From a virus, in IMG/VR virus record IMGVR_UViG_3300025122_006556, positions 1 through 26,663 of that record: a DNA stretch of 26,663 nucleotides; one strand, 5' to 3'. Below are positions 4,092 through 26,426 of this stretch, in pieces; positions within the stretch are counted from its first letter, which is position 1; every line of letters starts with the position of its first letter. The position numbers and the translations under genes were made by a program. The notes beneath the pieces are model-generated. The model did not search any database. It had not been told where the DNA came from and saw only the letters and a program-made list of their open reading frames with translations.

Positions 4092-7000
4092 CTAAAACCT
4101 CTTCAAAACACCAACCACCTGTTGGAGACCTAGATCAGTCTGTAAACCACGGCGATCATTCTCGCCAAGATAAATGTCCACCTGCTGATATTGCAGCTTG
4201 TTTCTTTCTAAAACATGCGATTCAATTACAAAATTCATACCTAAAAAATTCGTGCTATGCGACAGCATTCTCGCGATTAAAAATCCAATTGTTTCATCAA
4301 TCCACTTGTAAAAAGACAAGAGATTCTTGTAATTTATCTTATCGGTCAAACGCTTAAAATAAATTTCGCGGAGAGCAATGATATCTGGATAGTCTGTTGC
4401 ATAAAGTAGTTCGGGCGCACCAAGAGCATCGTTAAAGAAATCGAGTGTACCAAACAATAACATAATATCGTCATCAAGAGCTCGACAAGAGGATACCTCG
4501 ATCGAAAAACGAGTATCGTCAGTGACAGGTGTACCAAGAGGAATAGACGTGACAGGAGCTTTGAGCGCAGAAAATTCTTCGATATTTGAATCTTCAATAA
4601 AACTTAGAATTCGAATCTTGTTATCAGTACTCCGTTCATCAAATTTTGGCTCTAAAATACTAAAATTGAACTGTTCGGGCTTGAGAACCTGAATAGATGA
4701 TTTAAAGCCTGATCCAGACATGTGAAAATTATTTTGAGAATAATCGAAAATAACAATTTCACCTGCCGAATTTGATTGAGTCATTGCCTGATCACATTGT
4801 GCGTCCATGCGCATTCGTTCAAACGAACCCGTCTCCTTCGTAACAAAATTAAAATTAAGAAGTGGATCTGCAACCCCGACAGATTTAAAATTACGCACGT
4901 GCTCGAGGTTTTCCGCCAATGTCAAGTTCTTTGTCCATGCCCTGTAGCGTCCCATGGATCCTGTAAACAGCGTTGCTTTAGCGTGAGACGTAATCCCTGT
5001 AGCGTTTAACCCTGCATCATGTGAACTAAATGAACCAGTTCCAAACTGCAAAAACGAACCACTAATATTGGTAGAAACGCTACCCGACTGATAAAGATTT
5101 CCGGTGTGGAACGATGCTGTCATTGAGGCGTAGTTATAAGCAGTGAGATTTCCAAAGTTTTGTTTTCCTGCTCTTAAAAAATAGCTGGCCGTATAATCAC
5201 TCAAAATCTCTCGTCCAAATGTAACATGCCACACGTTACCATCGAAAATATTTGTCCCTGTTAACATTAACTCAATTGGCGCTTCTGGTGCGGGTGATGT
5301 AGCATCCCATGTGCCTATTGGGCGATGATATATTTTTAATGATCCAGTCATCTTCGAGTTGATTGGAGGATTTATTGCCAAACAATTTGCAATAACAGAC
5401 TCACCCGCCGATCCCGTAGTACAGACACGCCCGAGGCTCATCGTTGTTAAAAGAACCTGCTTTCTCGGTTTCACAAGAAATTCCGCGGTCCACGAACCAG
5501 ACGTGAAAAAACCATCCCATTCCAAATCAGAAATTCCGTGTGGTGGATAAAGCGATTTTTCAACCATTGTGCCCGCCGGGAATGGCACGCCGACCTCAAT
5601 GCGACTCCCACTTAAAAATGGACTATTAACAGCAGAACCGGACGAAAATGCCAGAAGCGTGCTAACCGCAGATCGATCCGTTCTTGTCTTGGTGAGTGAT
5701 AATGTTTTTGGACCACCATATTCTCTAAATCTAAACATATTTTCAGGAGCTATACCTGTAGCCCGAACAATCGACTTAACGGCATGGAGAGTTCCTTTAG
5801 ATCGAATTACGTCATTAATATTCATTAGAATACGACGCCAGATTTGAGCCTGCAAGTGCGCCAACGATGAATCAGTCGCACCGGGATCTGTTGTTATGTT
5901 TTGACCTCGCAAAAATTGCTGCACAGATGCACCCGAAAACATATTCGGAAGAACCAAACCATAATACTTGGCAAAAAACGGAATCATAATATCGGCAACA
6001 GTTCCGGTGTCGTCATAATCTAAGTGAAGCAAATTTCCAAATTGATCTATGAATAACTTAATTTCATCAAAAAACTTTGCCCACGTAAATAAAAGTGCTG
6101 CAATGAGTTGAGGGCTTCCAACTTTTCCGCCACCCGGAAAGTCAATGGTATAACTGTATAAATCACCAGTATTTGCAGCTTCGTTTAAATAGCCCTGGGC
6201 TTCTGCCTCTTCTATAAGATAATGTTGTGGAATGAGTTTCGTGATCAAATTTGGATTATTAACATCGTATACCGCAGCTGCACCAAGCAGTGAGGAGTTT
6301 AATGTTATAACATCAGGTTGTGAAGGAAAAAGCGTTGGATTGTAAAAAGGATCTTCATTAACCACTGGCACCGGAATCTGATCTTTATCACGCAAGGCAG
6401 TACTAAAATTTGTAATCTTGCCATGAAGAGAATTTCCTGAAGAATCTAAAACAACCGAATTATTACTATAGGAGCCGGTTGCTTCGTTAAACTTGTAAAA
6501 TGCCATAAGCGCCGGCTCAACATCGGTACTCCCTGATGCAACCTCTCGAATTTGTTCTTGATTTTTCTGTTCGCCATAAATTCTTACGTCATCTAGGGCT
6601 CCAGTTAATGAAGAAACAGGAGAAAATGTTGTAGACATTGTTCCCAGATAATGAGCACTGCCTGATCCCATATTAAAATTGGCACCCAAAAAATCAAGCG
6701 CACCAAAATCTGCCGTTAGAGAAGAAGACGCCGTAAGAACGCCATCTCTCCAAATCTGAAGGTATGGAAGTGTTCCAGCTGTCCGTGAAAATTGGCATGC
6801 ACAATGGGAAAACTTTTCGCCTTTCTCAAATGTAGCGCTTGCCGATATAGCCATACTTCCACTTGAGAGCAGAAAAACGAGCTCTCCTTGAGAAGAATCG
6901 GCCGATGCACTCATCGCAACCGTAAATCCGTGCGGAGGTTCTCCCGCGGATGAAGTCATTTTCTGACAAATAATTGAATTGGAGTTTATCTCTGTTGGGA

Positions 7001-7550
7001 GGTGAAGCCAAAACATAACCGAAAATGGACTCGTAGATAGATTAATCACCGGAATCCCGTCGCGGCGCTTTGAGATGGTCGGATATAAATCACCGGCACG
7101 GTCGACGATGGAAACATATGAACCTCCGTCAGAACCACCTCCGGCTGCTGCCCCCGAGAAATGTAAATACCCAATATATTTGGGCCACTGATCATAGAGA
7201 TATCGCTCATAACCTGTTAGCCCTTGCATAAACTCCTTGACTTCTTCCTTCGAGGAATCGAACGGAAAGAAATTAATCATGGTATCAAACGCAACGTTAA
7301 CCTTGCTTTGTGCAGAATCAAAAAATGTATGTTTTTCAAACCGCGTCCAATCAACCGGGAGTTGTTGAGTTGACTTGAAGGCTGTGCCAAACGAGTCCAG
7401 ATCAAGACTGCCGGTACCTAGATCAACTGATCCGGATAAAGACGCCAGACTTTCAAGTTCCACTCGCGATGATGGAGCAGCAAATTGAGTTACTGTGGCG
7501 GCACTAAACAGACCTGCGTTAGTTATTTCGCTAAATCTCTTTCTAGCCAT
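4092..7550 (-). CDS. Large tail/baseplate protein with two LamG-like domains
   Basis: 1152 residues. The N-terminal 130 residues (MARKRFSEITN onward, with LPVDWTRFEKHTFFDSAQSK) look like a virion-attachment segment. A first LamG-like domain lies at about 140-345 (PFSVMFWLHLP, LQIWRDGVL, GALDDVRIYGEQKN). A helical middle follows (TWAKFFDEIKLFIDQF, DIMIPFFAKYYGL, IWRRILMNINDVIRSKGT, AVKSIVRATGI). A second LamG-like region is at about 640-850 (SWTAEFLVKP, MGRYRAWTKNLTLAENLEHV). The C-terminal part (YFKRLTDKINYKNLLSFYKW, NFVIESHVLERNKL) is a pattern I recall from large phage structural proteins. Its place after gp6 and the DNRLRE-like gene matches that of T4 gp7/gp8, but no homology to them is claimed. 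The ATG shares one base with the upstream stop (TAATG). Likely a baseplate or peripheral tail scaffold carrying glycan-binding domains. Confidence 0.82.
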   Translation of the reverse strand: MARKRFSEITNAGLFSAATVTQFAAPSSRVELESLASLSGSVDLGTGSLDLDSFGTAFKSTQQLPVDWTRFEKHTFFDSAQSKVNVAFDTMINFFPFDSSKEEVKEFMQGLTGYERYLYDQWPKYIGYLHFSGAAAGGGSDGGSYVSIVDRAGDLYPTISKRRDGIPVINLSTSPFSVMFWLHLPTEINSNSIICQKMTSSAGEPPHGFTVAMSASADSSQGELVFLLSSGSMAISASATFEKGEKFSHCACQFSRTAGTLPYLQIWRDGVLTASSSLTADFGALDFLGANFNMGSGSAHYLGTMSTTFSPVSSLTGALDDVRIYGEQKNQEQIREVASGSTDVEPALMAFYKFNEATGSYSNNSVVLDSSGNSLHGKITNFSTALRDKDQIPVPVVNEDPFYNPTLFPSQPDVITLNSSLLGAAAVYDVNNPNLITKLIPQHYLIEEAEAQGYLNEAANTGDLYSYTIDFPGGGKVGSPQLIAALLFTWAKFFDEIKLFIDQFGNLLHLDYDDTGTVADIMIPFFAKYYGLVLPNMFSGASVQQFLRGQNITTDPGATDSSLAHLQAQIWRRILMNINDVIRSKGTLHAVKSIVRATGIAPENMFRFREYGGPKTLSLTKTRTDRSAVSTLLAFSSGSAVNSPFLSGSRIEVGVPFPAGTMVEKSLYPPHGISDLEWDGFFTSGSWTAEFLVKPRKQVLLTTMSLGRVCTTGSAGESVIANCLAINPPINSKMTGSLKIYHRPIGTWDATSPAPEAPIELMLTGTNIFDGNVWHVTFGREILSDYTASYFLRAGKQNFGNLTAYNYASMTASFHTGNLYQSGSVSTNISGSFLQFGTGSFSSHDAGLNATGITSHAKATLFTGSMGRYRAWTKNLTLAENLEHVRNFKSVGVADPLLNFNFVTKETGSFERMRMDAQCDQAMTQSNSAGEIVIFDYSQNNFHMSGSGFKSSIQVLKPEQFNFSILEPKFDERSTDNKIRILSFIEDSNIEEFSALKAPVTSIPLGTPVTDDTRFSIEVSSCRALDDDIMLLFGTLDFFNDALGAPELLYATDYPDIIALREIYFKRLTDKINYKNLLSFYKWIDETIGFLIARMLSHSTNFLGMNFVIESHVLERNKLQYQQVDIYLGENDRRGLQTDLGLQQVVGVLKRF

Positions 7551-9093: not shown

Positions 9094-10938
9094 TTACTCC
9101 ACAGTACCGCTAATATCGGCGCTTGGAAATTTGATTTCAAAAATGGCGCCGCGTGGTGGAATAATAAGTCCCTTAAATTTATTGGCCTCTAAATCAAACA
9201 CGTAATCGCTATAAGTTCTGCCCGACCTGGTACCTGAAATTGAATAAAAGAGCAAACTTTCCATCGCGAGAACCCCTGGAGTATTGATTATGACGTTAAT
9301 GATGTCGGCAACAACAATTGGTTGGTCAATTTGAAAGTACTTTCTTGCACTGGCGGCACCAACATTACGGGATACCGCAGCGGCCACCACTGATTTTTGT
9401 GCATTTGGAGTTGTCACTATCGAATATTCAATTCCGTAATTTACAATCACGGCATCAACTACGTCAATGGCGTCAGATATAAGCCTGTATTCGTTTAAAT
9501 ACGTTCGAAGATTTTTCTTTAATGAATCCGGAGCAAGACCAAGTTGGCCGCTTTTATTTTGTGACAAAATAAATAATTCGGTCGCAAGCGGATTTCGAAG
9601 ACTCTTTCGCAAACCTGCCCTATAAACCCGCCCGAACTCTGCCGGCAAAGAATAAAGACGGGCAAGTAAATCGTCTTGAGACACAATTCTTGACTGTTGA
9701 TTTCTGGTTGCGAAAATTTGGGTTCGATAATCTTCTAATGTCGGTGCGTTGGCTCCTCCTTGCGCGGGGGCGTCATTAGTGACATCTAAAGAATTCACAA
9801 CTGAAGCCTGTACAACCGGGGATGGAATCCCAGGGAAATCAATAATCATCGAAGGTACCGATGTAATAGTCTTCGCAGCGACGTTAGTTATGAGACCGCC
9901 ACCGTATCTATAGACAATTGTTAATGAGGTATTTGACGGAGAGATTCCCAAGGTCTTAGTCTTCATTAAATTTCGCGGATCAAGCGAAAACCTGGAAAGT
10001 GTTTCCCGGCCGTAGAGTGGCATTGCTAAAACAGACGGATCTGGAATCAAATCATCGTCTAGCGTTTCTTCATCACCGGATCCAAAGGTGAGAGTAGTTG
10101 TTCTTCGAGTAAAATCAACATCCCGAATATAGCGATATGGACATGCGGCAACTTCAATGGCGTATGGAACCTCCATATAATCAGAACCCAAATTTTTCGA
10201 ACGCTTGAAAACTGTGTTCTGTGTCAAATAATCCACTTCATAATATACGTTACCGGCAGTGTCCACAACTGAAATAATTTCTGAAATATCGGATTGCGAA
10301 AGGGTAATTTTCTTAAACGGAACCATCACTGTACACTTTACAGTTTGAGACGTTACTTTTCCGGCAAGTCCTAAAACCTCACGCGTTACGATATAAGTTG
10401 CTGGAGAACCGGCGGCCGAGGTTGTGGAAACCCAATAAGCTGATAACATATTCCCGTCAACATCCAGTTCGGCAAAATCCAAATCTTCTGCAGTTGAAAA
10501 TGTGGGTCCTTGATTCGATTTGGCCGACGTTCCTTCGCGTAAAACTGGAAGCGCGGAAGTCTGAGGCTGGTAAGAACCGTCACTGAGCTCTTCAGCTGGG
10601 ACCTCAATGAAAAACTTTAAAGTGACTACCGCCGGAGCCGCACCAGAAAATTTAACTCCAGCATTTCTTGCATGAGCAATAACGTTTGACGTTTCGATGG
10701 CGGTAACAGGATCTAATTCTTGAAATTGATGATCTAAAAAATATGACATACTATCGCCAACATACGCCGCAAGCTCTACAAACATCCCACCCAAAGATGC
10801 CTCGCTAAAATCGGCCATCTGCGCTGAAAAATAATTTTTGGCATAACCTGTTAAAGCAGACTTAAAGCCTACAAAATCTTTCGCAAGATAATTCTTATTC
10901 TGCTGTTTTATAATGTCTTTTTTTGTTTTAGTCGCCAT
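9094..10938 (-). CDS. Baseplate wedge protein, gp6/baseplate-J family
   Basis: 614 residues, close to T4 gp6 (660). Residues 43-73 (DFSEASLGGMFVELAAYVGD, then SMSYFLDHQFQE) are the typical N-terminal signature of this family, in which two subunits form the wedge core of a contractile-tail baseplate. GAAPAVVTLKFFIEVP around residue 100, the CPYRYIRDVDFTRRTTTL region near 270 and the baseplate-J style helix-strand region TLEDYRTQIFATRNQQSRIV near 400 fit the fold. The downstream domain with VVNYGIEYSIVTTPNAQKS fits the gp6 C-terminal half. A GGGAAA-type ribosome site (AATGGGAAAAACATG) precedes the ATG. It directly follows the gp25-like gene, the conserved order in contractile-tail clusters. Confidence 0.9.
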   Translation of the reverse strand: MATKTKKDIIKQQNKNYLAKDFVGFKSALTGYAKNYFSAQMADFSEASLGGMFVELAAYVGDSMSYFLDHQFQELDPVTAIETSNVIAHARNAGVKFSGAAPAVVTLKFFIEVPAEELSDGSYQPQTSALPVLREGTSAKSNQGPTFSTAEDLDFAELDVDGNMLSAYWVSTTSAAGSPATYIVTREVLGLAGKVTSQTVKCTVMVPFKKITLSQSDISEIISVVDTAGNVYYEVDYLTQNTVFKRSKNLGSDYMEVPYAIEVAACPYRYIRDVDFTRRTTTLTFGSGDEETLDDDLIPDPSVLAMPLYGRETLSRFSLDPRNLMKTKTLGISPSNTSLTIVYRYGGGLITNVAAKTITSVPSMIIDFPGIPSPVVQASVVNSLDVTNDAPAQGGANAPTLEDYRTQIFATRNQQSRIVSQDDLLARLYSLPAEFGRVYRAGLRKSLRNPLATELFILSQNKSGQLGLAPDSLKKNLRTYLNEYRLISDAIDVVDAVIVNYGIEYSIVTTPNAQKSVVAAAVSRNVGAASARKYFQIDQPIVVADIINVIINTPGVLAMESLLFYSISGTRSGRTYSDYVFDLEANKFKGLIIPPRGAIFEIKFPSADISGTVE

Positions 10939-10948
10939 GTTTTTCCCA

Positions 10949-11437
10949 TTATCCAGTTGCCAAAATGGTTATTACAACGCCATCTTGGATGATATTTGCT
11001 TTCGGAATAGAATATTTCACGCCGATTCTCACAGCTCCGAGTCCGGCCGTAGTTAAGCTTGGCACCCTTTCAATACTAAAAGTGACCAACTCAACAAAGG
11101 GCATATATTTCCCAACCGTAGTTCTAATTCTAGCCCCAACTTCAGAATCAAATGTCTCTGTACTCAATTCTGCAGTGAGCTCTTTTAAGTTTGCGCCAAA
11201 ATAGTATTGGCATGGTCGTTCGCCCCAGTTGGTTAATAATAAATTTTTCAAATTATCGCGGACCGCCTTCCGCGTCGAAGTATTCATGACAAAAAGGCCA
11301 TTTGTGCCCTGGCTAAGCTCCACAGGGGTTTTGACATTTATATTTACGCGCACAGGTGTATCAAGCCGCTCTTTCGCCCTAACGGTAGGAAGACGGTCAC
11401 CAACTGACGTAAAATCATATTCAACGATATCTGGCAT
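10949..11437 (-). CDS. Baseplate wedge protein, gp25/GPW family
   Basis: 162 residues, slightly longer than T4 gp25 (132). The core KAVRDNLKNLLLTNWGERPC (residues 57-76) followed by YYFGANLKEL matches the family pattern in which a conserved 'GER' turn precedes a short strand; GERP is at 72-75. The later strand FVELVTFSIERV also fits. gp25 is related to TssE of type VI secretion and links the wedge to the sheath and hub. A weak ribosome site (GTGGTGATTTATG) precedes the ATG. It lies 10 bases from the gp6-like gene, which is the usual partner. Confidence 0.9.
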   Translation of the reverse strand: MPDIVEYDFTSVGDRLPTVRAKERLDTPVRVNINVKTPVELSQGTNGLFVMNTSTRKAVRDNLKNLLLTNWGERPCQYYFGANLKELTAELSTETFDSEVGARIRTTVGKYMPFVELVTFSIERVPSLTTAGLGAVRIGVKYSIPKANIIQDGVVITILATG

Positions 11438-11483: not shown

Positions 11484-12044
11484 CTATGATAAGAATCCTT
11501 CCCCTTCGCCGGTGCCCGGAAGACTTGAACCTACAACCACCGACGTTCCAACAATTGTTCCTGCCACAACGGCACCCCCGGTGAGGGTTACGTCGGTTTC
11601 TACTTCTGCCGTGAGGGCAAAAGTGTGAATTGCGGTCATCATATCGTTTGCAAGCGTACCAATTATGTCGTCAGCCTTTGCGTTTGAAGGTTCGCCGTCG
11701 GCTTTTGCATTTAAATACGCGTCTTCTATATCGCCCTTAAGCGTTTGGACATCACCTCCAGGAAACGTAATTTCGCCAGTTGCCGTAGTCGGTCCTGGCG
11801 AACTATAAACTCCGGACGGCATCGTCGTAAACTGTGGCGGAGCCATGGGTATAATTCCAGGACTTCCAACAGTTATGACCAACGCGGTCTCCATGTAGGT
11901 ATGAATTGCATCGCCGACCGCATCAGCGAGATCACCAATTATTATAGTGGCATCCGCATCTGCTGCTTCGCCATCAGCCCTGGCTGCTTCATACGCATTT
12001 TTAAGATCAGTGATTAATGTGGGGTGACCTGCTGATAACGGCAT
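11484..12044 (-). CDS. Small baseplate-region protein with two copies of an AIHTY repeat
   Basis: 186 residues and not assigned to a named family. It contains two helical repeats, at residues 9-58 and 101-150, matching each other and the single repeat in the gene just upstream: TL..D(L/I)..AY..A.(A/D).GE......II..LA......AIH(T)...TA.V.T. A proline/glycine-rich linker joins the repeats, and the C-terminus is low complexity (GTGEGEGFLS). The ribosome site AGAGGA nine bases before the ATG overlaps the stop of the upstream gene. Position between the hub gene and gp25 suggests a small virion component such as an adaptor around the spike; the PAAR-tip gene of T4 (5.4) lies in a comparable position, but no PAAR motif is visible here. 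Confidence 0.75.
   Translation of the reverse strand: MPLSAGHPTLITDLKNAYEAARADGEAADADATIIIGDLADAVGDAIHTYMETALVITVGSPGIIPMAPPQFTTMPSGVYSSPGPTTATGEITFPGGDVQTLKGDIEDAYLNAKADGEPSNAKADDIIGTLANDMMTAIHTFALTAEVETDVTLTGGAVVAGTIVGTSVVVGSSLPGTGEGEGFLS
11595..11744 (-). repeat. AIHTY repeat, copy 3
   Basis: Residues 101-150 of the 186-residue protein, beginning TLKGDIEDAYLNAKADGE and ending MMTAIHTFALTAEVET. It lies 276 bases downstream of copy 2 in the same gene. Confidence 0.8.
11871..12020 (-). repeat. AIHTY repeat, copy 2
   Basis: Residues 9-58 of the 186-residue protein, beginning TLITDLKNAYEAARADGE and ending GDAIHTYMETALVIT. Both this copy and copy 1 follow an MPL-type N-terminus, so the two genes share their starts as well. 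Confidence 0.8.
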
Positions 12045-12056
12045 CTTTTTTGTCCT

Positions 12057-12320
12057 CTACACCAAACCACCGGTGCCAACTCCCTTTCCTTTCGACGTTG
12101 TAGTTCCACCGAGTGTGTCGGATTGCTGAGTGTCGGATTCAATGGTTGTTGTCACTAAGGCGGTTAGCATATAACTATGAATGGCATTTGCCATATCTGT
12201 GGCAAGAGTTTGTATAATAACTGTAGCGTCAGCTGACGAAGATTCGCCAGAATCTCGGGCTTTTTTATACGCGGCCTCAATATCCATTTCTAACGTAGCT
12301 GTTGACGATCCTAATGGCAT
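12057..12320 (-). CDS. Small baseplate-region protein with one AIHTY repeat
   Basis: 87 residues: MPLGSSTATL start, one helical repeat (residues 9-58, TLEMDIEAAYKKARDSGE ... NAIHSYMLTALVTT) and a Gly/Thr/Ser tail ending GKGVGTGGLV. The same N-terminus, repeat and glycine-rich tail occur in the 186-residue protein just downstream, so the two are paralogs, the other with a duplicated repeat. The ATG directly follows the TAA of the hub gene, with GGAGAG as ribosome site. Function unknown; a small virion or baseplate assembly protein is the simplest reading of its place. Confidence 0.78.
   Translation of the reverse strand: MPLGSSTATLEMDIEAAYKKARDSGESSSADATVIIQTLATDMANAIHSYMLTALVTTTIESDTQQSDTLGGTTTSKGKGVGTGGLV
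12147..12296 (-). repeat. AIHTY repeat, copy 1
   Basis: Residues 9-58 of the 87-residue protein. Shared positions with copies 2 and 3 include TL...D, AY, GE, II, LA, AIH and TA.V.T. Confidence 0.8.
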
Positions 12321-13976
12321 TTACTCTCCAAAAATTCTCTCTGATTGAACCGTTGAAATGTCTGGTTTGTGAGTACTTTCTATTGCGGCCTTAAACTCTG
12401 TAGCCGCATCGAGGATAACCACGTTAGGATTTCCATAACCTGGACTCTTATTATCAATACAACCCTGCAAAAACGTACTAAAATCATCCATAAACGAATC
12501 CCACATAGCCTTAAGATCTGAATATCTCACATACGGTTCACTGCCTCCCTCGCCTGGACCTGCATCGCGGCCGCCATCGTCTCCAGGTCGGCCCAAAAAT
12601 ATCTTAGAACCGCTTATTTGAATCGTTCCGTCTGGAAGTAAGCACACTGTAGCAAGGTCATCATCTTTTATACCTTCTTTGACGAGGCGAATGCTTCCGT
12701 TAATTTCAGGGGCATCCTTCATATAAAGACCTTCGTCTTCTTTTCGGGCAATAATTCTAACCTCATCAGCCTTTACAACAACATATGCCGCGTCGTTGAT
12801 TGGCTCAATCGGAGCCTCAAAGCCGGTTGCCATGCGTTCATCTGCCCCAAGACCAGCAACAACAACATCAGACGGTTCTTCACGAGTGCCCTCTGTCGGG
12901 TCGACAACTTCGAGGCCGGACTCTCCAGGATTTCCAGGGTCGTACTCCGTGACATCCGACCAGGTAACTGCCGCTTCGGCAGCGAGTGAATTAATTCCAA
13001 AATTTATATCGCCACTTGTCTTTTGTGATACGTAAATGCGGGCGGCGTCTATCATAAAATCCGGATCTCCTTCCGCGGGTGGCGGAGGATCCAGCTCGTT
13101 TATCTTTGTATTTTTATTGTTTTCGATATAATCCCGCTTATTCATGGTTGTTGGAAATGCCGTAAACGCAGGAGCATCTCCATCTGCATCAGCAAGCGTA
13201 GGTTCTGCTGGCAAATAACGAGATCTACCTGCAACAATATCGATTGTTCCAGCAAACTCTAAAGGCGCAAATTTTACCGCATTACTCTGCTGACGTCCGG
13301 ACGGATCTTCGTCAGAATATTTCCATCCCCTATCTTGCCCGAGAGAAATTAATGCATTATTACTTCCTTGTATGACAAAATCGCCCACTCGTTTTGAAAA
13401 TCGCGGAACAGGTTGTGGAGAAAAATTTTTGTATGATTCACTTTCATCAACAAGAGCTTGAAACGGATCTAACCCTTCTTGTCGTTGCTCCTTTGTTTCT
13501 TTCATCAAACCGTCATTTAAAAATGCAGGTAAAACTTTGGCACCTCCCTTTTCAGATGTCGCAAGTGCCGTAACAGGATTTAGCGATCTGGGCCAATGTG
13601 TATAGTTGACGTCATCTGTAAGAATCGGGGTTGAAATTCTAGAAATCCAATACGTTGCCAATGGATCTACTTTTCCAATCTCGGGAGAAATTAGCCAAAC
13701 TGTTTCACCAGGTTTGATTGGAAAACACAGATGTGGAGGAAAAAACGGCAACACAAGAAAAGTAGTTGTCTTACCACCTTCCCCTGACCCTACCCGCCGG
13801 ACGATACAAGAATTTCTAGGAGCACGGTCAAATAAGCCATGTTGTTCTGGATCTAAGTTTTCCTTAAGCTGAGTCTTTTTCTCGAGATCATATAATCCAA
13901 TGTCATACAAAACTTCAACAACAACTCCCTTATTTAAAAGTAAGCCCCCTTGCGCGTTGCCTTTCAAAAATCCCAC
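12321..13976 (-). CDS. Baseplate hub/spike protein (gp5/VrlC-like OB-fold)
   Basis: 551 residues with a GTG start at 13976; GGAATAAAGCT precedes it. The N-terminal 125 residues (NKGVVVEVLYDIG, RNSCIVRRVGSG, TFLVLPFFPPHLCFPIKPGE, WLISPEIGK, YWISRIS, DDVNYTHWPRS) look like the OB-fold of phage hub proteins, and GDFVIQGSNNALISLGQDRG at 198-217 is a pattern I recall in proteins annotated as VrlC or gp5-like hubs of marine phages. A long variable region and a C-terminal section with PDGTIQISGSKIFLGR and SEPYVRYSDLKAMWDSFMDD follow. No lysozyme domain is visible, unlike T4 gp5. It would form or cap the central tube spike that reaches the host envelope. The order hub, small proteins, gp25, gp6 supports the call. 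Confidence 0.78.
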   Translation of the reverse strand: MGFLKGNAQGGLLLNKGVVVEVLYDIGLYDLEKKTQLKENLDPEQHGLFDRAPRNSCIVRRVGSGEGGKTTTFLVLPFFPPHLCFPIKPGETVWLISPEIGKVDPLATYWISRISTPILTDDVNYTHWPRSLNPVTALATSEKGGAKVLPAFLNDGLMKETKEQRQEGLDPFQALVDESESYKNFSPQPVPRFSKRVGDFVIQGSNNALISLGQDRGWKYSDEDPSGRQQSNAVKFAPLEFAGTIDIVAGRSRYLPAEPTLADADGDAPAFTAFPTTMNKRDYIENNKNTKINELDPPPPAEGDPDFMIDAARIYVSQKTSGDINFGINSLAAEAAVTWSDVTEYDPGNPGESGLEVVDPTEGTREEPSDVVVAGLGADERMATGFEAPIEPINDAAYVVVKADEVRIIARKEDEGLYMKDAPEINGSIRLVKEGIKDDDLATVCLLPDGTIQISGSKIFLGRPGDDGGRDAGPGEGGSEPYVRYSDLKAMWDSFMDDFSTFLQGCIDNKSPGYGNPNVVILDAATEFKAAIESTHKPDISTVQSERIFGE

Positions 13977-13980
13977 AGCT

Positions 13981-14346
13981 TTATTCCTTTTCCTTTATTT
14001 GCGCAAAAATATCTTCCGGACTAATCTTTGCAACCTGATCTTCGGCTTTTGAAATTAACTCAGCGAGTTTCAGTAGTTGTTCGTTTGACTTATTCATTCG
14101 CTCCAAATATTTGGTTAGAACAGGACCAATCGTCACATGTTCTGTCACACCGGCCTGCATTGTCGAGTAGGCCTCAGTAAATAACACACTTGCATTAAGC
14201 CTGTCTCGAAGTGCATTTTCGTAAATTTCTTTCCACAGGAGCTTTCTCTTATCAGTCGTTGAAGAAAGACCTTCTAGGAGTTCAGAAAATTCATTAATTT
14301 TTTTCTGTTGCTTTTCTTGTTGTTTTAACAACGCATCATAGCTCAT
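13981..14346 (-). CDS. Conserved helical coiled-coil phage protein
   Basis: 121 residues, almost entirely predicted helical and charged: KQQEKQQKKINEFSELLEGL, DKRKLLWKEIYENALRDR, NEQLLKLAELISKAEDQVAK. No catalytic motif or membrane segment. The pattern KRKLLWKEIYENAL...R and YLERM(N)KSNEQLLKLAEL is one I associate with short unnamed proteins beside phage sigma factors. Its ATG overlaps the sigma factor stop (ATGA), so the two are translationally coupled. A partner of the sigma factor or of RNA polymerase, in the manner of T4 gp33, is possible, but no sequence resemblance to gp33 is claimed; an assembly chaperone is the alternative. Confidence 0.75.
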   Translation of the reverse strand: MSYDALLKQQEKQQKKINEFSELLEGLSSTTDKRKLLWKEIYENALRDRLNASVLFTEAYSTMQAGVTEHVTIGPVLTKYLERMNKSNEQLLKLAELISKAEDQVAKISPEDIFAQIKEKE

Positions 14347-15056
14347 AACAATTCCTCATTTGTAATTTGGCGATACAGTCGTCTAATTGTTGACATTGAC
14401 GTTGATAATTGCTTGGAATTTAATCCAGATATCTCCCTAATATAGACATAAATCGCGCGCTTGTTGAGTAAATCGAGTTCGTCAATTTTGTCAAAAACTA
14501 TAAGAATAGCTTCTATACATTTTATATCATTTTGATTTTCTACCTGTTCCTGCAAAATTCGCAACATTTTTTGTATTTCCGCGCGGCGTTCGCGCTTAAT
14601 CATTACATCATCCGGTGCCGGTGCAGTTTGGTAATGAGCAATTGTATGACGATCAAATGCGTTGAATCCTGCTAACTCATGAATTGGATATGAATTATCA
14701 TAAACTTTCTTTCTTTTACGAGTGTTGAGTATTAACCAGTTTTTTGCCACAACATTGAAATATGAAAAAGCCTTTGTGCCACGAGAGCCATCAAATTTGT
14801 GAAGTGTTTCATACAAAAATGTAATACAGTCATTTTTTAATGCGTCGAAAGAATGTCGACCTTTTGCAAAGCCATAAATTAAAATAAGATTTTCTACCAG
14901 CTTATCAAATGCCGGTAAAATATCCTTTGTGTATAACGCGTCTTTTTCTTCTTGAGATTCTGCAATTTGCCATTTCTCAATTGCTATCTGCGTATCTTTG
15001 GTAAAGTATAGTTTGCTCTTTCCCTTTCTACGCTTGATTATTCTTTTCTTCATCAT
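14343..15056 (-). CDS. Phage RNA polymerase sigma factor (gp55-like, late transcription)
   Basis: 237 residues. A basic N-terminus (MMKKRIIKRRKGKSKLYF) leads to a sigma region 2-like core: HSFDALKNDCITFLYETLHK, FDGSRGTKAFSYFNVVAKNW, LILNTRKRKK. These correspond to the region 2.1-2.4 helices that bind the polymerase clamp and the -10 element. The C-terminal part (KRAIYVYIREISGLNSKQLS, TSMSTIRRLYRQI) resembles a helix-turn-helix like region 4, though weakly. The family is the phage late sigma group, of which T4 gp55 is the named example. It probably directs late transcription of the baseplate genes downstream. Both ends overlap neighbours by four bases. I leave the symbol empty because the likeness to T4 gp55 is by fold and role. 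Confidence 0.85.
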   Translation of the reverse strand: MMKKRIIKRRKGKSKLYFTKDTQIAIEKWQIAESQEEKDALYTKDILPAFDKLVENLILIYGFAKGRHSFDALKNDCITFLYETLHKFDGSRGTKAFSYFNVVAKNWLILNTRKRKKVYDNSYPIHELAGFNAFDRHTIAHYQTAPAPDDVMIKRERRAEIQKMLRILQEQVENQNDIKCIEAILIVFDKIDELDLLNKRAIYVYIREISGLNSKQLSTSMSTIRRLYRQITNEELL

Positions 15057-15361
15057 TCGCTTCGTTCCACATCGACATCTTCTTCCACCATCATATAATT
15101 CGCGACGGTAAGAATTGCATCACGACTGGCTTCAACATCTTCTAAAACTTTTCTAATTTGTGGACTGTCAAAAAATAACGGGATCTGCAAAATTTGATTT
15201 ATCGAATCGTATCTTTCGTCAAGTAAGTCCAGTGAACTTTCAATTGCTTCGGTCATCTGCAGGATCAATATGGCATGTTTAACATTGAAATAAAGTTGCG
15301 TGGCACATATCATTGCCAGACACACTACTCCACCAAGCAACCCTACTTCAAGACCTGTCAT
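15053..15361 (-). CDS. Single-pass membrane protein, unknown function
   Basis: 102 residues from the ATG at 15361, which overlaps the upstream glycosyltransferase stop (ATGA). An in-frame start ten codons earlier exists, but the overlap start fits the pattern of this gene block. One transmembrane helix is near the N-terminus (GLEVGLLGGVVCLAMICATQ, residues 3-22), followed by a helical cytoplasmic or periplasmic part: EAIESSLDLLDERYDSINQI and PLFFDSPQIRKVLEDVEASR. The stop overlaps the start of the sigma factor. I do not recognise a named family. Its place between glycosyltransferases and the sigma factor gives no clear role; membrane anchoring of the glycosylation enzymes or regulation of host envelope functions are guesses. 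Confidence 0.78.
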   Translation of the reverse strand: MTGLEVGLLGGVVCLAMICATQLYFNVKHAILILQMTEAIESSLDLLDERYDSINQILQIPLFFDSPQIRKVLEDVEASRDAILTVANYMMVEEDVDVERSE

Positions 15362-16518
15362 CCTGCGTGATCTCTCATTGCCGCATCCCACACGTCGGAA
15401 AGTGCTGCATGTGTGTGGGTTTTAAGTAGTGATTCCCGCAAATCCTTCGCCCACTTATTTGGCGTTTCTGATTTTTGTCGAAATTTTCTAATTTTCTTTT
15501 TAAAATCTTGTTCCTGAACTTCTGCCCATTTTGAATTTTCGACAAATATTTGACCATCTATTTTTCCAGAATCAACGGGTTGCAAATCATAATCAAGCTT
15601 TAACCACTTTCCTTGATTCAAGAAATCGCAATGACCTGACCAATTCGTTGCAATAACTGGCAGCCCGCTGGCGGCTGCTTCTAATAATGGTAATCCAAAA
15701 CCTTCACCTCGAGTTGGGGCCACGAGCGCCTTGATCGTAGGATTCAAGTAAAGACCAGCAATCTCATCATCAGTCATCGCACCGTGCAAAAGATAAATAG
15801 GTGGATGTTTACCTAGCTCATTGGCAACTTGTGACAAAATTCTCCGAACGACAGTTCGATCAAGCGTTGTATTACGCCCATGATTCGTTTTGAGTATTAT
15901 GCCAACATCCGGATCATCTGCAAACTCTTCAGATAACCACTTAAGAGCAAAAAACGTATTTTTTCTATCATGCATTGCATGTGTACCGGTGAGTTGCCCA
16001 AATATTAAAAAATTGATCGGAGTCCTTACGTCCATTTCAAATGGAGAAGCGGTGCCAGAAATAATACTGTCTGGAAACGACTCCGGAATTACAACAACAG
16101 GAACATGAAGTTTACCACTTCGAAAAAGAGTATCTTTAGTGTGATGTGTGGGCACAACAACTAAATTCATAGTATTACATGCATCGATCCACTGCGGATT
16201 ACAAATGTCTGTCTCAACACCAGCAGTTATTCCAACATTAAATGTTGCAAGATTTGGATCCCACTCATTAGGAAGCTGAATCTGGAATGACATGTCAAAT
16301 TTTCCATCGCCCTCAACAGCCGACGTTTCCATTATTTTTCCAGCAAGTCCGTCAAGAGCATCCGGATTAATATGCCACGGAGTTATTCCCCATGGTAAAA
16401 TTTGAGACGTGATGCGAATACTTGGATCACTCTTCTCGGATAGCCACCTAAATACCTGGCGCGAATGATTTCCATAACCACTAATTGACAAAAGCGGGCC
16501 TCTAACACAAATGTTCAT
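15358..16518 (-). CDS. Glycosyltransferase, GT4-like (GT-B fold)
   Basis: 386 residues. It transfers a sugar from a nucleotide donor to an unknown acceptor, with retention of configuration, if it follows the GT4 family. The N-terminal acceptor domain starts MNICVRGPLLSISGYGNHSR with the glycine-rich GYGNHSRQ loop. The C-terminal donor domain has the family signature GEGFGLPLLEAAASGLPVIA, with the E-x7-E pair at E272 and E280. DRKNTFFALKWLSEEF and PIYLLHGAMTDDEIAGLYL are typical of this group. The ATG overlaps the upstream stop (ATGA), and the gene is coupled on both sides. Donor and acceptor cannot be inferred. Confidence 0.88.
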   Translation of the reverse strand: MNICVRGPLLSISGYGNHSRQVFRWLSEKSDPSIRITSQILPWGITPWHINPDALDGLAGKIMETSAVEGDGKFDMSFQIQLPNEWDPNLATFNVGITAGVETDICNPQWIDACNTMNLVVVPTHHTKDTLFRSGKLHVPVVVIPESFPDSIISGTASPFEMDVRTPINFLIFGQLTGTHAMHDRKNTFFALKWLSEEFADDPDVGIILKTNHGRNTTLDRTVVRRILSQVANELGKHPPIYLLHGAMTDDEIAGLYLNPTIKALVAPTRGEGFGLPLLEAAASGLPVIATNWSGHCDFLNQGKWLKLDYDLQPVDSGKIDGQIFVENSKWAEVQEQDFKKKIRKFRQKSETPNKWAKDLRESLLKTHTHAALSDVWDAAMRDHAG

Positions 16519-17762
16519 TTTATTTCCTCACAAACTACTCGATTATATTTTGATTTCCAGTTTTTTAACATATCATTGAGCGAATCATGCCACAAGTCAA
16601 TTGTGCGCTGGTACGAAAATTCTTCCTGCACATAAGAACGAACCTTTAGGCTTAATTCTTTCTTTTCTTCGGGAGAAAGCCTATAGAGTTTTGTCAAACC
16701 CTCCCCAATAGCATCGGTAGTACAATAATCTTCGTAAATATAAGGTACGGTCTGAGAACCCACCAACGACGTCAAGTCCACATTTAATGCCACGCCGTTT
16801 TCGGTTCCATCTCTGTGATCGACAACTTGTCTCGTTAGACCTCCAGTTTTAACTGCTAAAATTGGGGTACCAGTCTGCATAGCTTCAAGAGTTGCGAGCC
16901 CAAAACCTTCTGCATAAGAAATATTCACGCAACAATCGGAAATATTGTGAAGCGTATTAATTTTTTCAAAATCGAGCCTATCTCTAGAAAAAACCACAGA
17001 ATCAGAAATTCCTAAATTGTCACAGATTGAAAATAAGTTTGGTCCTTCGGTATCTTCTGGATCGGTGTGTAGTAAAAGCGTTGCCCGGGTGCGCTCCCCT
17101 TCAATCGAATTGGCGTCAAGAAATTTTTTCCATCCAAAAAGTAAATCGCCGGGACGTTTTCGTCGCGCATTTCTATTCATCCAAAAAGCAACAAAATCAT
17201 CTTTTCGTTGATAGCCTAATGCCTTTATTTTTGCGTCCCGACAATCGGTTTCGGATAGAGGATGAAAAACTTCATCGGGAAGTGCGTGCGGAACAAAGTT
17301 TACTTTATCCGGAAATCGAGGGTGAAGCATTTCATATGTCAAATAACTATGACAATTAATTAAATCAGTTGCTTCATAATAGGGTGTATTAAACTCAGGA
17401 TATGGATAGTTATCCCACACATGCCAATACGCAATAGGACATATCTGGTGTATTTCGTCTTCTATTTCCCACAACCAAGTAAAAAACCTGGGATCAGTAA
17501 AAAGTAAAAGTAGATCAGGCTTTTCGGCAGCAAGGGTCTGCCTTATCAAGTCCCGATTTCCAAATCCATCAATCGGCTTAATTATAAAATCGTCATTCAC
17601 GTGGACGACGTCATAATTATTATGTTTTATGGCGGCCCCAAATTGGCGAATTGACCATTCACCCTTTTGAATCAAGCCGTTAATTAAATGACGACTTTGA
17701 ACGCCGACCCCAGACGTACTCAACGCGTGATCAGACAATAACAGTATTTTTTTCTTTTGCAT
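16515..17762 (-). CDS. Glycosyltransferase, GT4-like (GT-B fold)
   Basis: 415 residues. The N-terminal domain has MQKKKILLLSDHALSTSGVG with VQSRHLINGL, the acceptor-side glycine loop. The donor domain has RKRPGDLLFGWKKFL near residue 202 and the EGFGLATLEAMQTGTPILAV signature with the E-x7-E pair at E285 and E293. The ribosome site AGAGGA lies five bases before the ATG. It is the first gene after the longest gap in the window (61 bases) and the first of the five-gene coupled block ending in the coiled-coil protein. It is clearly a paralog by fold of the next glycosyltransferase, but with its own acceptor domain. Confidence 0.9.
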   Translation of the reverse strand: MQKKKILLLSDHALSTSGVGVQSRHLINGLIQKGEWSIRQFGAAIKHNNYDVVHVNDDFIIKPIDGFGNRDLIRQTLAAEKPDLLLLFTDPRFFTWLWEIEDEIHQICPIAYWHVWDNYPYPEFNTPYYEATDLINCHSYLTYEMLHPRFPDKVNFVPHALPDEVFHPLSETDCRDAKIKALGYQRKDDFVAFWMNRNARRKRPGDLLFGWKKFLDANSIEGERTRATLLLHTDPEDTEGPNLFSICDNLGISDSVVFSRDRLDFEKINTLHNISDCCVNISYAEGFGLATLEAMQTGTPILAVKTGGLTRQVVDHRDGTENGVALNVDLTSLVGSQTVPYIYEDYCTTDAIGEGLTKLYRLSPEEKKELSLKVRSYVQEEFSYQRTIDLWHDSLNDMLKNWKSKYNRVVCEEIK

Positions 17763-17823
17763 GCAATTCCTCTAATGCTTAGTGCTCGCCTAGAAAAATT
17801 ACTCCAAAAAGAAGAAACGTAAA

Positions 17824-18660
17824 TTATGTGCAGTACTTTGTGCCATAAAAGGGACAGTATTTACACGAATTTCTATTTTTCAAATAAAACCCCTTTCTAA
17901 CTGTTGACACCATACTTCTCAAAAGCTTTTCGACACGGTCTTCAGTCTTCGGTCCAACCGATACCTTGAATAGGTCGACGTGATCCTTCTTTGCCCCACG
18001 TTTAAGGAGAACAAAGCCACACCCAACATCTTTACAGTCTACATTATTCTTGGCACGCCAGAACTTTTTGTATAACGCAATTTGAGCCTGGACCAAAAAA
18101 TCCCTGCGCTTATAGTTATTCCACCCATAAGCCGGGGCTGTCTTCCAGTCTAACACCCACGTCTTCCTGCCGCCTCGATAATCACACTCTATAACTACGT
18201 CAATAAAGCCCTTAAACGACAGCTCGTCTCCGGGAAGTTTTTCATAAAGTTGTTCCTCGGCAGAAATAAGTGTCCAATTTGGAAAATTTGTCTCCAAAAA
18301 TTCTGGCACATGAACTACAGAGTTCTCTGCCCACTCTAACCAAGTCTCTAACGGTGGAAGAATGCGCGGATCTTCCCCTCGTGAGCGAGCTTTTGTAGTA
18401 AGTCGTTCAATGTACTCGGGCGTATCATATCCCCTTTCAATCCATGCCTTGGTAATATCCGCCTTCAGTTTTTCAACATTTAACTGGCGGGTCTTTAGAT
18501 ACTCTTCTAAACACGCGTGTAACAGCGTGCCATAATCTAAATATTGAGAAACGTCGTCTAAATCAGCACCATCAATGTACCTAAGCTTATGTCGGTACGG
18601 GCATTCCTTCCACGTTCTAATTTCTGAATAGGATACATGAGGTTTATTTGTTGGAAACAT
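17824..18660 (-). CDS. PD-(D/E)XK nuclease, Cas4/RecB-like, with probable Fe-S cluster
   Basis: 278 residues from the ATG at 18660; a TTG six bases earlier is in frame but less likely. Visible motifs: SYSEIRTWKECPYRHKLRYI (residues 10-29), YGTLLHACLEEYL with H48, GFIDVVIE with D154, DWKTA with D171 and K173, and QAQIALYKKF with Q191. These are the ordered motifs of the Cas4/AddB/RecB nuclease family. Four cysteines (C20, C266, C269, C277) match the split Fe-S cluster arrangement, one N-terminal and three in the C-terminal NSCKYCPFYGTKYC. The enzyme likely acts on single-stranded ends in phage replication, recombination or host DNA breakdown. It has no clear ribosome site. It lies between the sugar cassette and the glycosyltransferase-sigma block. 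Confidence 0.9.
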   Translation of the reverse strand: MFPTNKPHVSYSEIRTWKECPYRHKLRYIDGADLDDVSQYLDYGTLLHACLEEYLKTRQLNVEKLKADITKAWIERGYDTPEYIERLTTKARSRGEDPRILPPLETWLEWAENSVVHVPEFLETNFPNWTLISAEEQLYEKLPGDELSFKGFIDVVIECDYRGGRKTWVLDWKTAPAYGWNNYKRRDFLVQAQIALYKKFWRAKNNVDCKDVGCGFVLLKRGAKKDHVDLFKVSVGPKTEDRVEKLLRSMVSTVRKGFYLKNRNSCKYCPFYGTKYCT

Positions 18661-18665
18661 AATCA

Positions 18666-18693
18666 ATTATAATCACAAACTAAAAATTGTACA
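18666..18693 (-). promoter_or_regulatory. Putative sigma-70-like promoter ahead of the nuclease gene
   Basis: On the minus strand a perfect TATAAT (18666-18671) lies 16 bases after TGTACA (18688-18693), which agrees with TTGACA at four of six positions. Transcription would begin at or very near the nuclease ATG, giving a nearly leaderless message; the gene also lacks a good ribosome site. The stretch is A+T rich, so chance occurrence is plausible. Confidence 0.3.
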
Positions 18694-18706
18694 TTTCCGG
18701 TAGGTG

Positions 18707-19096
18707 TCAGTCGCCCTTGATTATCCTATGGCTATCGCTGTCGAAGTGTTGTGTTGAAAATTCAAAAAGTTCGGAATCTTCTAACGCATACATCTGATGT
18801 CGTAAACCGCGATACACATGAAAATTATCACCAGGATTTAAGATAAGTTGTTTTCCTTTTGTGATATCGTCGTCTTCAGAATAGTAGACAATCATTTTAC
18901 CGGACTGCAAATAAAATACTTCATCCTTTAACTTATGTTTGTGCCATGAGCAGCGCTTACCCTTCTTGAAGAAGAGAAGCTTACCACAATACTCTGGGCC
19001 ATTGCAGATCCAGCGCTCCCAACCCCACCCTTTTTCAACATGCTTCATTGGAAGTTCCGTGTTTCTTGGCAGAAATCTTTTTTCCTGTTCACTCAT
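18707..19096 (-). CDS. Cupin, mannose-6-phosphate-isomerase-like
   Basis: 129 residues forming a single cupin. The first cupin motif is WHKHKLKDEVFYLQSGKMIV, with H52, H54 and E59 as likely metal ligands; the second motif is PGDNFHVYRGLRHQM with H93 or H100. The N-terminal KHVEKGWGWERWICN and YCGKLLFFKKGKR are typical of small phosphomannose-isomerase-like cupins. A sugar isomerase or sugar-phosphate binding role fits the cassette, but many such stand-alone cupins have no known substrate. It does not resemble RmlC or the FdtA-type ketoisomerases in its core motifs. The start overlaps the HAD gene by eight bases. Confidence 0.85.
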   Translation of the reverse strand: MSEQEKRFLPRNTELPMKHVEKGWGWERWICNGPEYCGKLLFFKKGKRCSWHKHKLKDEVFYLQSGKMIVYYSEDDDITKGKQLILNPGDNFHVYRGLRHQMYALEDSELFEFSTQHFDSDSHRIIKGD

Positions 19097-19424
19097 TGTT
19101 CATACCTTCTTCAAAAAATTCGAGGTCGTGTACAGCCTTGTCATCGACGTAAATATCGCCTGCCGGCTTTCCTAAAAACAACTGATGGAATTTTACGCCC
19201 CAAGACTCAAGCTGAGTCTTTGTCATTTCATAAAATGCCGTGTGGGCGTATGCCGCTGAATTGCCAGATCTCCCCATGCCCCGGGCAGTTTGAAATATTA
19301 CTGTGTGGCCGGCATCGTAGAGCGCGTTAACCACCGTTATCCGCTTAGCAATTGGAGATGCATTGTCATAATCGCTATCACGACTATCACAAATTGTCCC
19401 ATCAATATCGAAAACGTATACCAC
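19089..19424 (-). CDS. HAD-superfamily phosphatase, small
   Basis: 111 residues with a GTG start at 19424 that shares one base with the upstream TAG. The three HAD motifs are present: FDIDGT with nucleophile D6 and acid D8, FQTARG with T46, and the K86 ... YVDDKA with D94-D95 motif. There is almost no cap domain, as in small sugar-phosphate or capsule-biosynthesis phosphatases. It would remove phosphate from a sugar-phosphate intermediate; the substrate is unknown. The partial protein at the right edge has the same YIDDKA ending, so the cassette carries two such enzymes. Confidence 0.85.
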   Translation of the reverse strand: MVYVFDIDGTICDSRDSDYDNASPIAKRITVVNALYDAGHTVIFQTARGMGRSGNSAAYAHTAFYEMTKTQLESWGVKFHQLFLGKPAGDIYVDDKAVHDLEFFEEGMNNE

Positions 19425-20278
19425 TACTCATCGTGCTCCGAAACAGCACCTTTTATACGACCCCAATCCAAGTCGGTCCTGACACTCATGTTTCTTTGCC
19501 ACACGGCGCCCAACACGTGAGCATCCATGTCGATATCATTACAAAAACCCATAAAGGCGTTTATGTCTTTTGGAAAACACTTTCCTCCAAATCCATAATC
19601 ACCATCGTGACCAGGCACATCAATATGAGAATTTCCAATCCGGCCGTCGGCCATAAAACCCTCCATTATCTTATCCCAATCGCAACCAATTTTAGACGCC
19701 ACTAAAAACATTTCGTTCATATACGAAATCTTAGTTGCGAAAAAACAGTTACACATATATTTGATAAATTCTGCGGAGGCTTCATCTGTTTCAATAACCT
19801 TTGTATATGGAAATCTATCATGGTAAAGCTCGGCCACCATTCGTGTATCGTCTGAATTACCACCAAGAACTATTCGAGACGCATTAATAAAATCTAAATT
19901 TGCCGATCTTTCAGTTAAAAATTCAGGATTAAACACAATTCGTAAATTGGGATACCTGTCCACGTACTGGGCGGTTGTCCCGGGAATTACTGTCGACTTT
20001 ATCACAAAAATAGTTTCATCGTATGATAAGTGGGATAAACTCACAATATCATTAAATACCGAATCTAAAATAGATAGATCAATTTTCCCGCCGGTTACGT
20101 GTTGCATGGGAGTCGGTACGGAAATAAAGATAAAGTTAGAACTGGCCAGCGTTTCTTCTAGCGTGTGAATTGATTTTCTTGGATCTTTGTCGAAAACTTT
20201 AACATTCGCATGCAGAGCAAATCCAGCTGCAATTGCCGAGCCAACAAATCCATTACCAATAATTCCAATATTTTTCAT
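19424..20278 (-). CDS. UDP-glucose/GDP-mannose dehydrogenase-like protein lacking the C-terminal domain
   Basis: 284 residues, versus about 390-450 for the family. The NAD-binding loop GIIGNGFVGSAIAAGF opens the protein, followed by FDKDPRK, SVPTPM, IKSTVIPGTT, FNPEFLTERSANLDF, KYMCNCFFATKISYMNE and the catalytic GFGGKCFPKD with C234. These cover the NAD domain and central helical domain. The usual C-terminal sugar-nucleotide-binding Rossmann domain is absent; the protein ends about 50 residues after the catalytic cysteine. It may therefore be inactive on UDP-sugars, act on a smaller substrate or need a partner. The stop is followed by one shared base with the HAD start, so no frameshift is seen that would restore a longer product. 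Confidence 0.85.
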   Translation of the reverse strand: MKNIGIIGNGFVGSAIAAGFALHANVKVFDKDPRKSIHTLEETLASSNFIFISVPTPMQHVTGGKIDLSILDSVFNDIVSLSHLSYDETIFVIKSTVIPGTTAQYVDRYPNLRIVFNPEFLTERSANLDFINASRIVLGGNSDDTRMVAELYHDRFPYTKVIETDEASAEFIKYMCNCFFATKISYMNEMFLVASKIGCDWDKIMEGFMADGRIGNSHIDVPGHDGDYGFGGKCFPKDINAFMGFCNDIDMDAHVLGAVWQRNMSVRTDLDWGRIKGAVSEHDE

Positions 20279-20280
20279 AA

Positions 20281-21123
20281 TTAAAGAGTCCTGATTGCAC
20301 TTATGACGTCTGCAGGTTCCGGATCAAACCCATCCACCATATGTGATTTGACACAAAATGGATTCCAGGTATTTTTATATCTGGCAAAATTTTGGCGAGG
20401 ATTACTTGTCCACCATACCTGGGGACATCCTGAGAGGGCTGCAAGATGCAGGGGACCTGACGAAGGACCGACTATACACTTTGCAGAACGCATTAAACCT
20501 GTAACAAACTCAAGCTCCATACCACGATAATCAGTTGCACCTTCGATCAACAGCGAACTGTTTTCTTCTCCAATACATGCAACAGTAAAATTTGATTTGA
20601 GTACTCGCGCAGTGTCATTCCACTTTTGTTGATTCCAGTTATCTATTTCTCTAATTTTTCTATTTCTGGCATGAATTAATATATCAGCGCGTTGGCCTTG
20701 AGAATCACCTTGGTACACCCGGTATTCGGGGATAATTTCGCCGACGCTTTGAATCGATACGGGGGCGCGCCAGTGATCATAGGGTGGATTTCCAATCTTT
20801 GTGGGACCAATCCAATCCCATGTATACGAGCGCAAAACATCCAGTGAAACTGTTGCGGTAAGAAATTCCTGGGCGTTAAAATTCGTCACCGCAGTGTTTG
20901 TGTGCGAATCCACTATTCCCGATGAGTCCGGAGCAAAAGGAACATAGATATTGCAGAAATCCGAATAAAGATAAGAATTTCCTGGACGACTTATTACAAC
21001 ACAAAAATCATATCTTCTAGAAAGTGATCTACAATAAGCTTGCCACGCAAATAGCTCCCAACCAAACTCGCCAACCCATGGCCCAAAAATAACGCCTTGC
21101 TTATTCAACGATGCTTCATTCAT
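20281..21123 (-). CDS. GT9/heptosyltransferase-like glycosyltransferase
   Basis: 280 residues. The C-terminal donor region has IVGPSSGPLHLAALSGCPQV (residues 217-236), the signature of GT9 and related GT-B enzymes, in which the serine/histidine pair binds the nucleotide sugar. The N-terminus (GVIFGPWVGEFGWELFAWQA) is an unusual variant in which a GEFGWEL replaces the usual glycine-rich GD.ill loop. A central ADILIHARNRKIREIDNW marks the domain boundary. The ribosome site is weak. GT9 enzymes commonly add heptose or other sugars to lipopolysaccharide core, which would fit modification of host envelope, but the acceptor cannot be read from sequence. Confidence 0.75.
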   Translation of the reverse strand: MNEASLNKQGVIFGPWVGEFGWELFAWQAYCRSLSRRYDFCVVISRPGNSYLYSDFCNIYVPFAPDSSGIVDSHTNTAVTNFNAQEFLTATVSLDVLRSYTWDWIGPTKIGNPPYDHWRAPVSIQSVGEIIPEYRVYQGDSQGQRADILIHARNRKIREIDNWNQQKWNDTARVLKSNFTVACIGEENSSLLIEGATDYRGMELEFVTGLMRSAKCIVGPSSGPLHLAALSGCPQVWWTSNPRQNFARYKNTWNPFCVKSHMVDGFDPEPADVISAIRTL

Positions 21124-21160
21124 TCATTCATACCATACAACTTTTAAAAAACATGTACAA

Positions 21161-22039: not shown

Positions 22040-22046
22040 TATTATT

Positions 22047-22052
22047 TCCTCC
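22047..22052 (-). promoter_or_regulatory. Ribosome binding site that fixes the start at 22039
   Basis: GGAGGA on the minus strand, seven bases before the ATG of the CgeB-like glycosyltransferase. It is the strongest Shine-Dalgarno match seen in the window and overrules the earlier ATG at 22057. Confidence 0.75.
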
Positions 22053-22062
22053 ATCAAAAATG

Positions 22063-22770: not shown

Positions 22771-22776
22771 TTTTAT

Positions 22777-22782
22777 TCTCCT
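22777..22782 (-). promoter_or_regulatory. Ribosome binding site that fixes the start at 22770
   Basis: AGGAGA six bases before the ATG of the GT-A glycosyltransferase, directly after the stop of the nucleotidylyltransferase gene. Confidence 0.7.
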
Positions 22783-22783
22783 A

Positions 22784-24443: not shown

Positions 24444-24457
24444 GATAGTTTCATTCC

Positions 24458-26424: not shown

Positions 26425-26426
26425 TT

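Follow-up and report, generated by a model that had tools for sequence, protein, structure and literature searches.

A possible repeat-built cap for the central spike, encoded beside the spike gene in a group of environmental phages

The window analysed here, a 26,663-base IMG/VR virus record taken at its full length, encodes two small proteins, A and B, in the 'slot' between the genes for a spike and for a gp25-like baseplate protein, all read from the minus strand. Together A and B carry three copies of one small unit, predicted to be helix-helix-strand-strand. The reading tentatively preferred, with slightly less than an even chance of being right, is that they form a virion part that caps the trimeric spike at its distal (C-terminal) end, mostly as a homotrimer among the relatives and as a pseudo-trimer here; evolution would sometimes have fused the three units into one or two chains. 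A broader proposal is more doubtful: that the proteins belong to a non-PAAR tip family that passed from homotrimer to obligate pseudo-trimer, perhaps twice, giving a single asymmetric tip on each threefold spike, with a helical dock that exchanges modules, tail-fibre-like ones among them.

Two genes and three repeats in the spike-gp25 slot

Both genes are confirmed as open reading frames (Table 1), and their repeats align with scores above those of all 2000 shuffles: 138 for A against the first repeat of B (best shuffle 51), 136 for A against the second (best shuffle 70) and 100 for the two repeats of B against each other (best shuffle 62). The preliminary description, made from the letters of the DNA, thus saw correctly that two adjacent genes hold three copies in all, that A and B share an MPL start and that the copies in B, beginning at T9 and T101, lie 92 residues apart. 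It had set a 50-residue repeat beside a glycine-rich tail. A does have this tail, and B ends in one (GTGEGEGFLS), but it makes the second strand of a predicted hairpin within the repeat, so that the unit is better put at about 85 residues.

Table 1. Positions of the slot genes, their repeats and the adjoining baseplate genes in the window
Feature	Position	Strand	Remarks
gp6-like baseplate wedge protein	9094..10938	-	PHROG 6 E 7.4e-13
gp25-like sheath initiator / wedge protein	10949..11437	-	Pfam PF04965 (GPW_gp25) E 1.6e-7; PHROG 261 E 2.8e-9
gene B	11484..12044	-	186 aa; holds repeats 2 and 3 of the three
repeat 3 conserved core	11592..11768	-	about B residues 93-151
repeat 2 conserved core	11868..12041	-	B residues 2-59
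gene A	12057..12320	-	87 aa; holds repeat 1 of the three, with two helices, a first strand and a second strand rich in Gly/Thr
repeat 1 conserved core	12144..12317	-	A residues 2-59
spike protein (gp45/gpV/gp5-like)	12321..13976	-	putative OB fold at the N-terminus, then predicted strands and, at the C-terminus, a helical hairpin with the end RIFGE
spike C-terminal helical hairpin	12321..12530	-	residues about 485-542 plus RIFGE end

Gene A starts immediately after the stop codon of the spike gene. Both A and B have ordinary starts with a Shine-Dalgarno-like sequence ahead of them, and both stop at TAG, as do other genes of the window. Fusion of A to B, which lie in the same frame, by recoding of TAG was rejected on three grounds: TAG terminates other genes of the window, B has its own Shine-Dalgarno-like sequence, and a relative, L003, has TAA at the corresponding point (L numbers denote loci).

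The location of the pair, with the spike gene upstream and gp25 downstream, is as originally described. The upstream gene is most likely that of the spike, to judge from a predicted structure. The AF2 model of the whole spike is weak overall (pLDDT 55), with much of residues 10-116 at 70-85, and was used for the N-terminal and C-terminal parts only, being too weak beyond them. Among the structural matches of the putative N-terminal OB part are chains from the baseplates of A-1(L), P1, Bas63 and Mu (the Mu spike being gp45), with Z scores of 5.4-6.2 that lie below a clear level. Strands of the type DGTIQISGSKIFLG come next, and then the predicted helical hairpin. In the A-1(L) spike, by contrast, the strands give way to a terminal loop (PMC10966104); the spike of the window has the hairpin as its end, and the gene for a slot protein comes after it.

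Neither A nor B has a significant match in Pfam, PHROG or NCBIfam, in agreement with the earlier view that they belong to no named family, and among 54 slot proteins compared with named families there are only isolated matches in one or two members, none of them in A or B. No match to PAAR or DUF4150 (Pfam) was found among the window proteins at E values up to 1 or among the 54 slot proteins at E values up to 0.01. The PDB holds no sequence relative of the repeat by these searches: the best single-sequence E value is 1, the family profile matched no phage chain, and its matches near 0.005 are transporter chains, read as low-complexity chance. A match to the hydrophobic-surface-binding family HsbA (E 0.022, below cut-off) and others to TFX_C, a glutamate transporter and glycerate kinase are likewise considered chance or low complexity. 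A tblastn search of 50,697 records of the GenBank phage collection with single- and double-repeat proteins gave nothing credible, and so no carrier among cultured phages was found. Microcystis phage Mel-JY01, Flavobacterium phage immuto and LR756508 have the corresponding region, with slot proteins that bear no visible resemblance to the repeat. No description of such a tip turned up in a literature search.

Copy number and descent of the repeats

To find relatives, IMG/VR was scanned three times and bacterial genomes once with the gp6-like neighbour as bait; this gave about 200 loci, duplicates included, and a profile of the repeat added more. The first relative, L003, has a matching gene pair of 87 and 201 aa. 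An iterated HMM built from single-repeat slot proteins recovers the unit of about 85 residues, including its Gly/Thr-rich part. The carriers are a little-known group of mostly marine phages.

Copy number was counted at 66 distinct loci that share this gene order, have an intact slot and carry the spike gene upstream of it. The slot holds a single repeat at 44 of these, two repeats at 7 and three at 15. The two-repeat loci comprise five with one repeat in each of two genes and two with both in one gene, while the three-repeat loci comprise nine with the 1+2 arrangement of the window and six with a single gene. Among these 66 loci there is no total above three, nor does the order 2+1 ever occur. 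The gap between the spike gene and the slot has a median of 1 base.

Some loci depart from the common form. At L082, with its near copies L146 and L194, gp25 lies only 81 bases past the spike gene and there is no slot gene; these phages may have no cap or may encode it elsewhere. The three-repeat slot protein of L195 (positions 1709-2902) has short WD-rich repeats (DVDWSVDWTVVWDD...) inserted between repeats 1 and 2, an insert absent from its relatives. The position-1 proteins of L138 (3361-3822) and L128 (738-1247) are unusually long, 153 and 169 aa, that of L138 having an extra C-terminal part (KVKNALWRSSNRKDDEGEILRSVGNGMFEVKFKDSIEIL...) after the repeat.

In a tree of the individual repeats, positions 1, 2 and 3 cluster by position across phages, far beyond what is seen in shuffles. 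A groups with position 1 of L093, L213, L003, L212, L009 and L011, with weak to moderate support, and the two repeats of B group with positions 2 and 3 of the relatives; position 3 of the window's clade forms a supported group (98 SH-aLRT). By this sequence comparison, the three positions are orthologous between phages, and best supported as such for the third. On the gp6 tree, the three-repeat state requires at least five changes and the switch between 1+2 genes and one three-repeat gene at least three; gene boundaries therefore shift while the total is kept at three. Transfer of the cassette may lie behind some changes to three repeats, for example in L212, whose pair is near that of L003 (71% in the best segment) but which lies elsewhere on the gp6 tree.

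At L075, L090, L128 and L195, positions 2 and 3 group together (95 SH-aLRT), which suggests a second, separate triplication; in a second tree the grouping is weaker (81/88) and takes in a long single-repeat branch. A single triplication for all three-repeat loci is the less favoured history, since the trees favour two, and the AU test does not reject it (p 0.07-0.17).

The end of the spike as a candidate partner

Distances between slot proteins track those between spike ends, taken as the last 75 residues (with gp25 and gp6 given, partial r 0.68 and p 0.002), so that slot type and spike-end type go together. The N-terminal (OB) and middle parts of the spike add nothing, and gp25, the neighbour on the other side, gives a partial r of 0.09. 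The correlation is mostly between types. The core group alone gives a weak one, with a partial r of 0.24-0.25 (p 0.004-0.01), or of 0.23 (p 0.07) in a second analysis. Slot and spike end are adjacent, and exchange of the two as a cassette, without contact, could add to the correlation. Contact between the slot protein and the spike end is a reasonable reading of this co-variation, though not a forced one. The placement 'between spike and tube' originally proposed is not favoured, as the family follows the C-terminal end of the spike and not gp25.

The contents of the slot also vary by fusion and replacement. L126 is the sister of L032 on the gp6 tree, and the spike ends of the two are very much alike. 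The L032 slot holds a plain 80-residue protein; in L126 the helical unit, which aligns with that of L032 at a score of 96 (shuffle maximum 61), runs on into about 360 further residues. The first third of this extension matches both a tail fibre protein of a Bradyrhizobium phage (2e-9) and the structural protein PHROG 697. That the unit is joined to a tail-fibre-like module suggests a site at the distal end of the spike. In L122 the slot is taken by a pentapeptide-repeat protein (1.5e-22). Such variability is easier to reconcile with an exposed tip than with an internal adaptor. At none of the relatives' loci was the slot unit seen fused to the spike itself. At L125, a slot domain with collagen-like and tail-fibre parts was marginal (E 0.035) and was left uncounted. 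Long, very hydrophobic, Pro-rich proteins of about 280-520 aa occupy the slot at L021, L028, L030, L035, L117, L161-L163, L168 and L073; they have no HMM relation to the repeat and are possibly membrane-active partners of the spike.

Possible roles of A and B, and the genes around them

The packing of three repeats was predicted with the natural three-repeat protein of L011 (265 aa), with ten sequences in the alignment. The AF2 model (pLDDT 74, pTM 0.71) has the helix-helix-strand-strand (HHEE) arrangement three times, once per repeat, with the three repeats packed as one body. Foldseek and VIA searches of solved structures gave no convincing match. VIA finds a loose match of the helices to a designed six-helix barrel (Z 6.2) and alignments to single-chain beta barrels that cover all three repeats (Z about 4-5), values too low, with a model of moderate confidence, to indicate a shared fold or kinship. 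If the model is right, these barrel-like matches fit three helix pairs and three hairpins closing into one pseudo-threefold body. PAAR-fold chains are absent from the Foldseek and VIA matches listed for the model, from which their exclusion does not follow. BFVD contains an unnamed viral protein of 207 residues that is predicted to be arranged in a similar way (E 1.4e-8; TM 0.79, scaled by its length).

In a contractile tail, the tip of the spike enters the cell first. Under the preferred reading, the cap would sit on the trimeric central spike at its distal (C-terminal) end, with the spike hairpin as its docking partner. Most relatives would make a homotrimeric cap from three identical copies of a single-repeat protein; the window and 14 other distinct relatives would use three diverged units, either as 1+2 in two chains or as 3 in one. 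From this we infer for A and B a presence in the virion and a 1:1 stoichiometry, one chain of each giving one pseudo-threefold cap per spike trimer. When the sheath contracts, the cap would enter the cell envelope ahead of the spike, in the fashion of a PAAR tip. The preliminary description rightly saw a duplication in a baseplate setting with a link to symmetry, but its pseudo-dimer is not supported: relatives conserve a total of three (as 1+2 or 3), where most phages have one, which points to a pseudo-trimer. Counting against a simple trimer are the seven loci with a total of two repeats.

Those totals can also be explained by a homotrimer on the spike axis in which extra repeats form stacked layers, three of them making a longer tip. 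Stacking accounts equally well for totals of one, two and three, and more simply for the two-repeat loci, but it sits poorly with the L011 model, where the repeats pack together and the barrel-like matches extend across all three of them, with the lack of any total above three and with the excess of three over two (about twofold over distinct loci, relatedness still included); it is unlikely, though worth keeping in view. A role outside the virion, as a chaperone that helps to fold or assemble the spike in the manner of T6SS accessory proteins, which load spike tips, is a shade less probable again. The gene's place right after the spike gene and its small, variable product would suit a chaperone, and DUF2169-type accessory proteins adjoin T6SS spike genes (PMC11883445), whereas the tail-fibre-like fusion in L126 and the pentapeptide-repeat protein in the L122 slot favour a structural tip.

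Quite improbable is a general symmetry adaptor, a trimer-to-hexamer link between the spike or hub and the tube or wedge, even though the genes sit between spike and gp25 and totals of 1, 2 and 3 each divide six, so that a six-unit ring is possible. Known adaptors of this kind, such as the gp27-like hub, are separate proteins, which counts against it; in the T4 gp27-type hub, an internal domain duplication reconciles threefold and sixfold symmetry. Unlike that hub, the A/B family totals three rather than two and tracks the distal end of the spike, not gp25 or the N-terminal OB part, and the L126 fusion to a fibre-like module would need free space. Just as improbable is that A and B are some other baseplate part, or the outcome of neutral duplication without meaning for symmetry. 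The family is unnamed and the evidence for its location is indirect, which suits such a view; against it, the total of three is kept despite moving gene boundaries, and the positions stay distinct.

The proposed cap resembles the PAAR tips (T4 gp5.4, T6SS VgrG-PAAR, eCIS PAAR) in being a small protein encoded near the spike gene that would top a trimeric spike. One gp5.4 tip sits on each gp5 trimer of T4, at 3:1 by SEC-MALS (PMC7600766), and a single chain thus matches a trimer; a similar match is proposed here. PAAR proteins carry extensions (PMC8651086), as the L126 unit carries an extra domain. Unlike them, the slot family has no PAAR match and comprises one to three repeats per slot, each predicted as helix-helix-strand-strand rather than as the short PAAR cone. 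DUF4150 (PIPY) PAAR-like tips also occur beside T6SS spike genes, together with DUF2169 accessory proteins (PMC11883445, in the part available), and are similar in being non-PAAR proteins adjoining a spike gene; A and B differ in having no Pfam match and in a repeat architecture, which that part of the source does not mention for DUF4150 tips.

No PAAR tip is seen at the usual place in this group of environmental phages. The slot family suggests instead a small, exchangeable dock at the spike end, and its series of one, two and three copies provides natural material for testing how a symmetric ring comes to be made of unlike subunits. For annotators it offers a handle on a recurrent unknown gene in a large group of uncultured phages.

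Further genes of the window deserve mention. Upstream of the spike, positions 14343-15056 encode a protein of 237 aa that weakly matches a late sigma factor (PHROG 234, E 0.028); L005 and L008 have similar proteins in the equivalent position, and thus a conserved regulator may sit in the baseplate cluster. Downstream, two large structural proteins (1893-4091 and 4092-7550) have LamG-type (Laminin_G_3) domains (8.6e-19 and 1.8e-10) and are candidate host-binding parts. A large glycan and sugar-nucleotide cluster (15358-26430) adjoins the tail genes, with group 1 glycosyltransferases at 15358-16518, 16515-17762 and 21161-22057, and with UDP-glucose dehydrogenase-like, nucleotidyltransferase, GDP-mannose 4,6-dehydratase-like and B12-binding radical SAM proteins.
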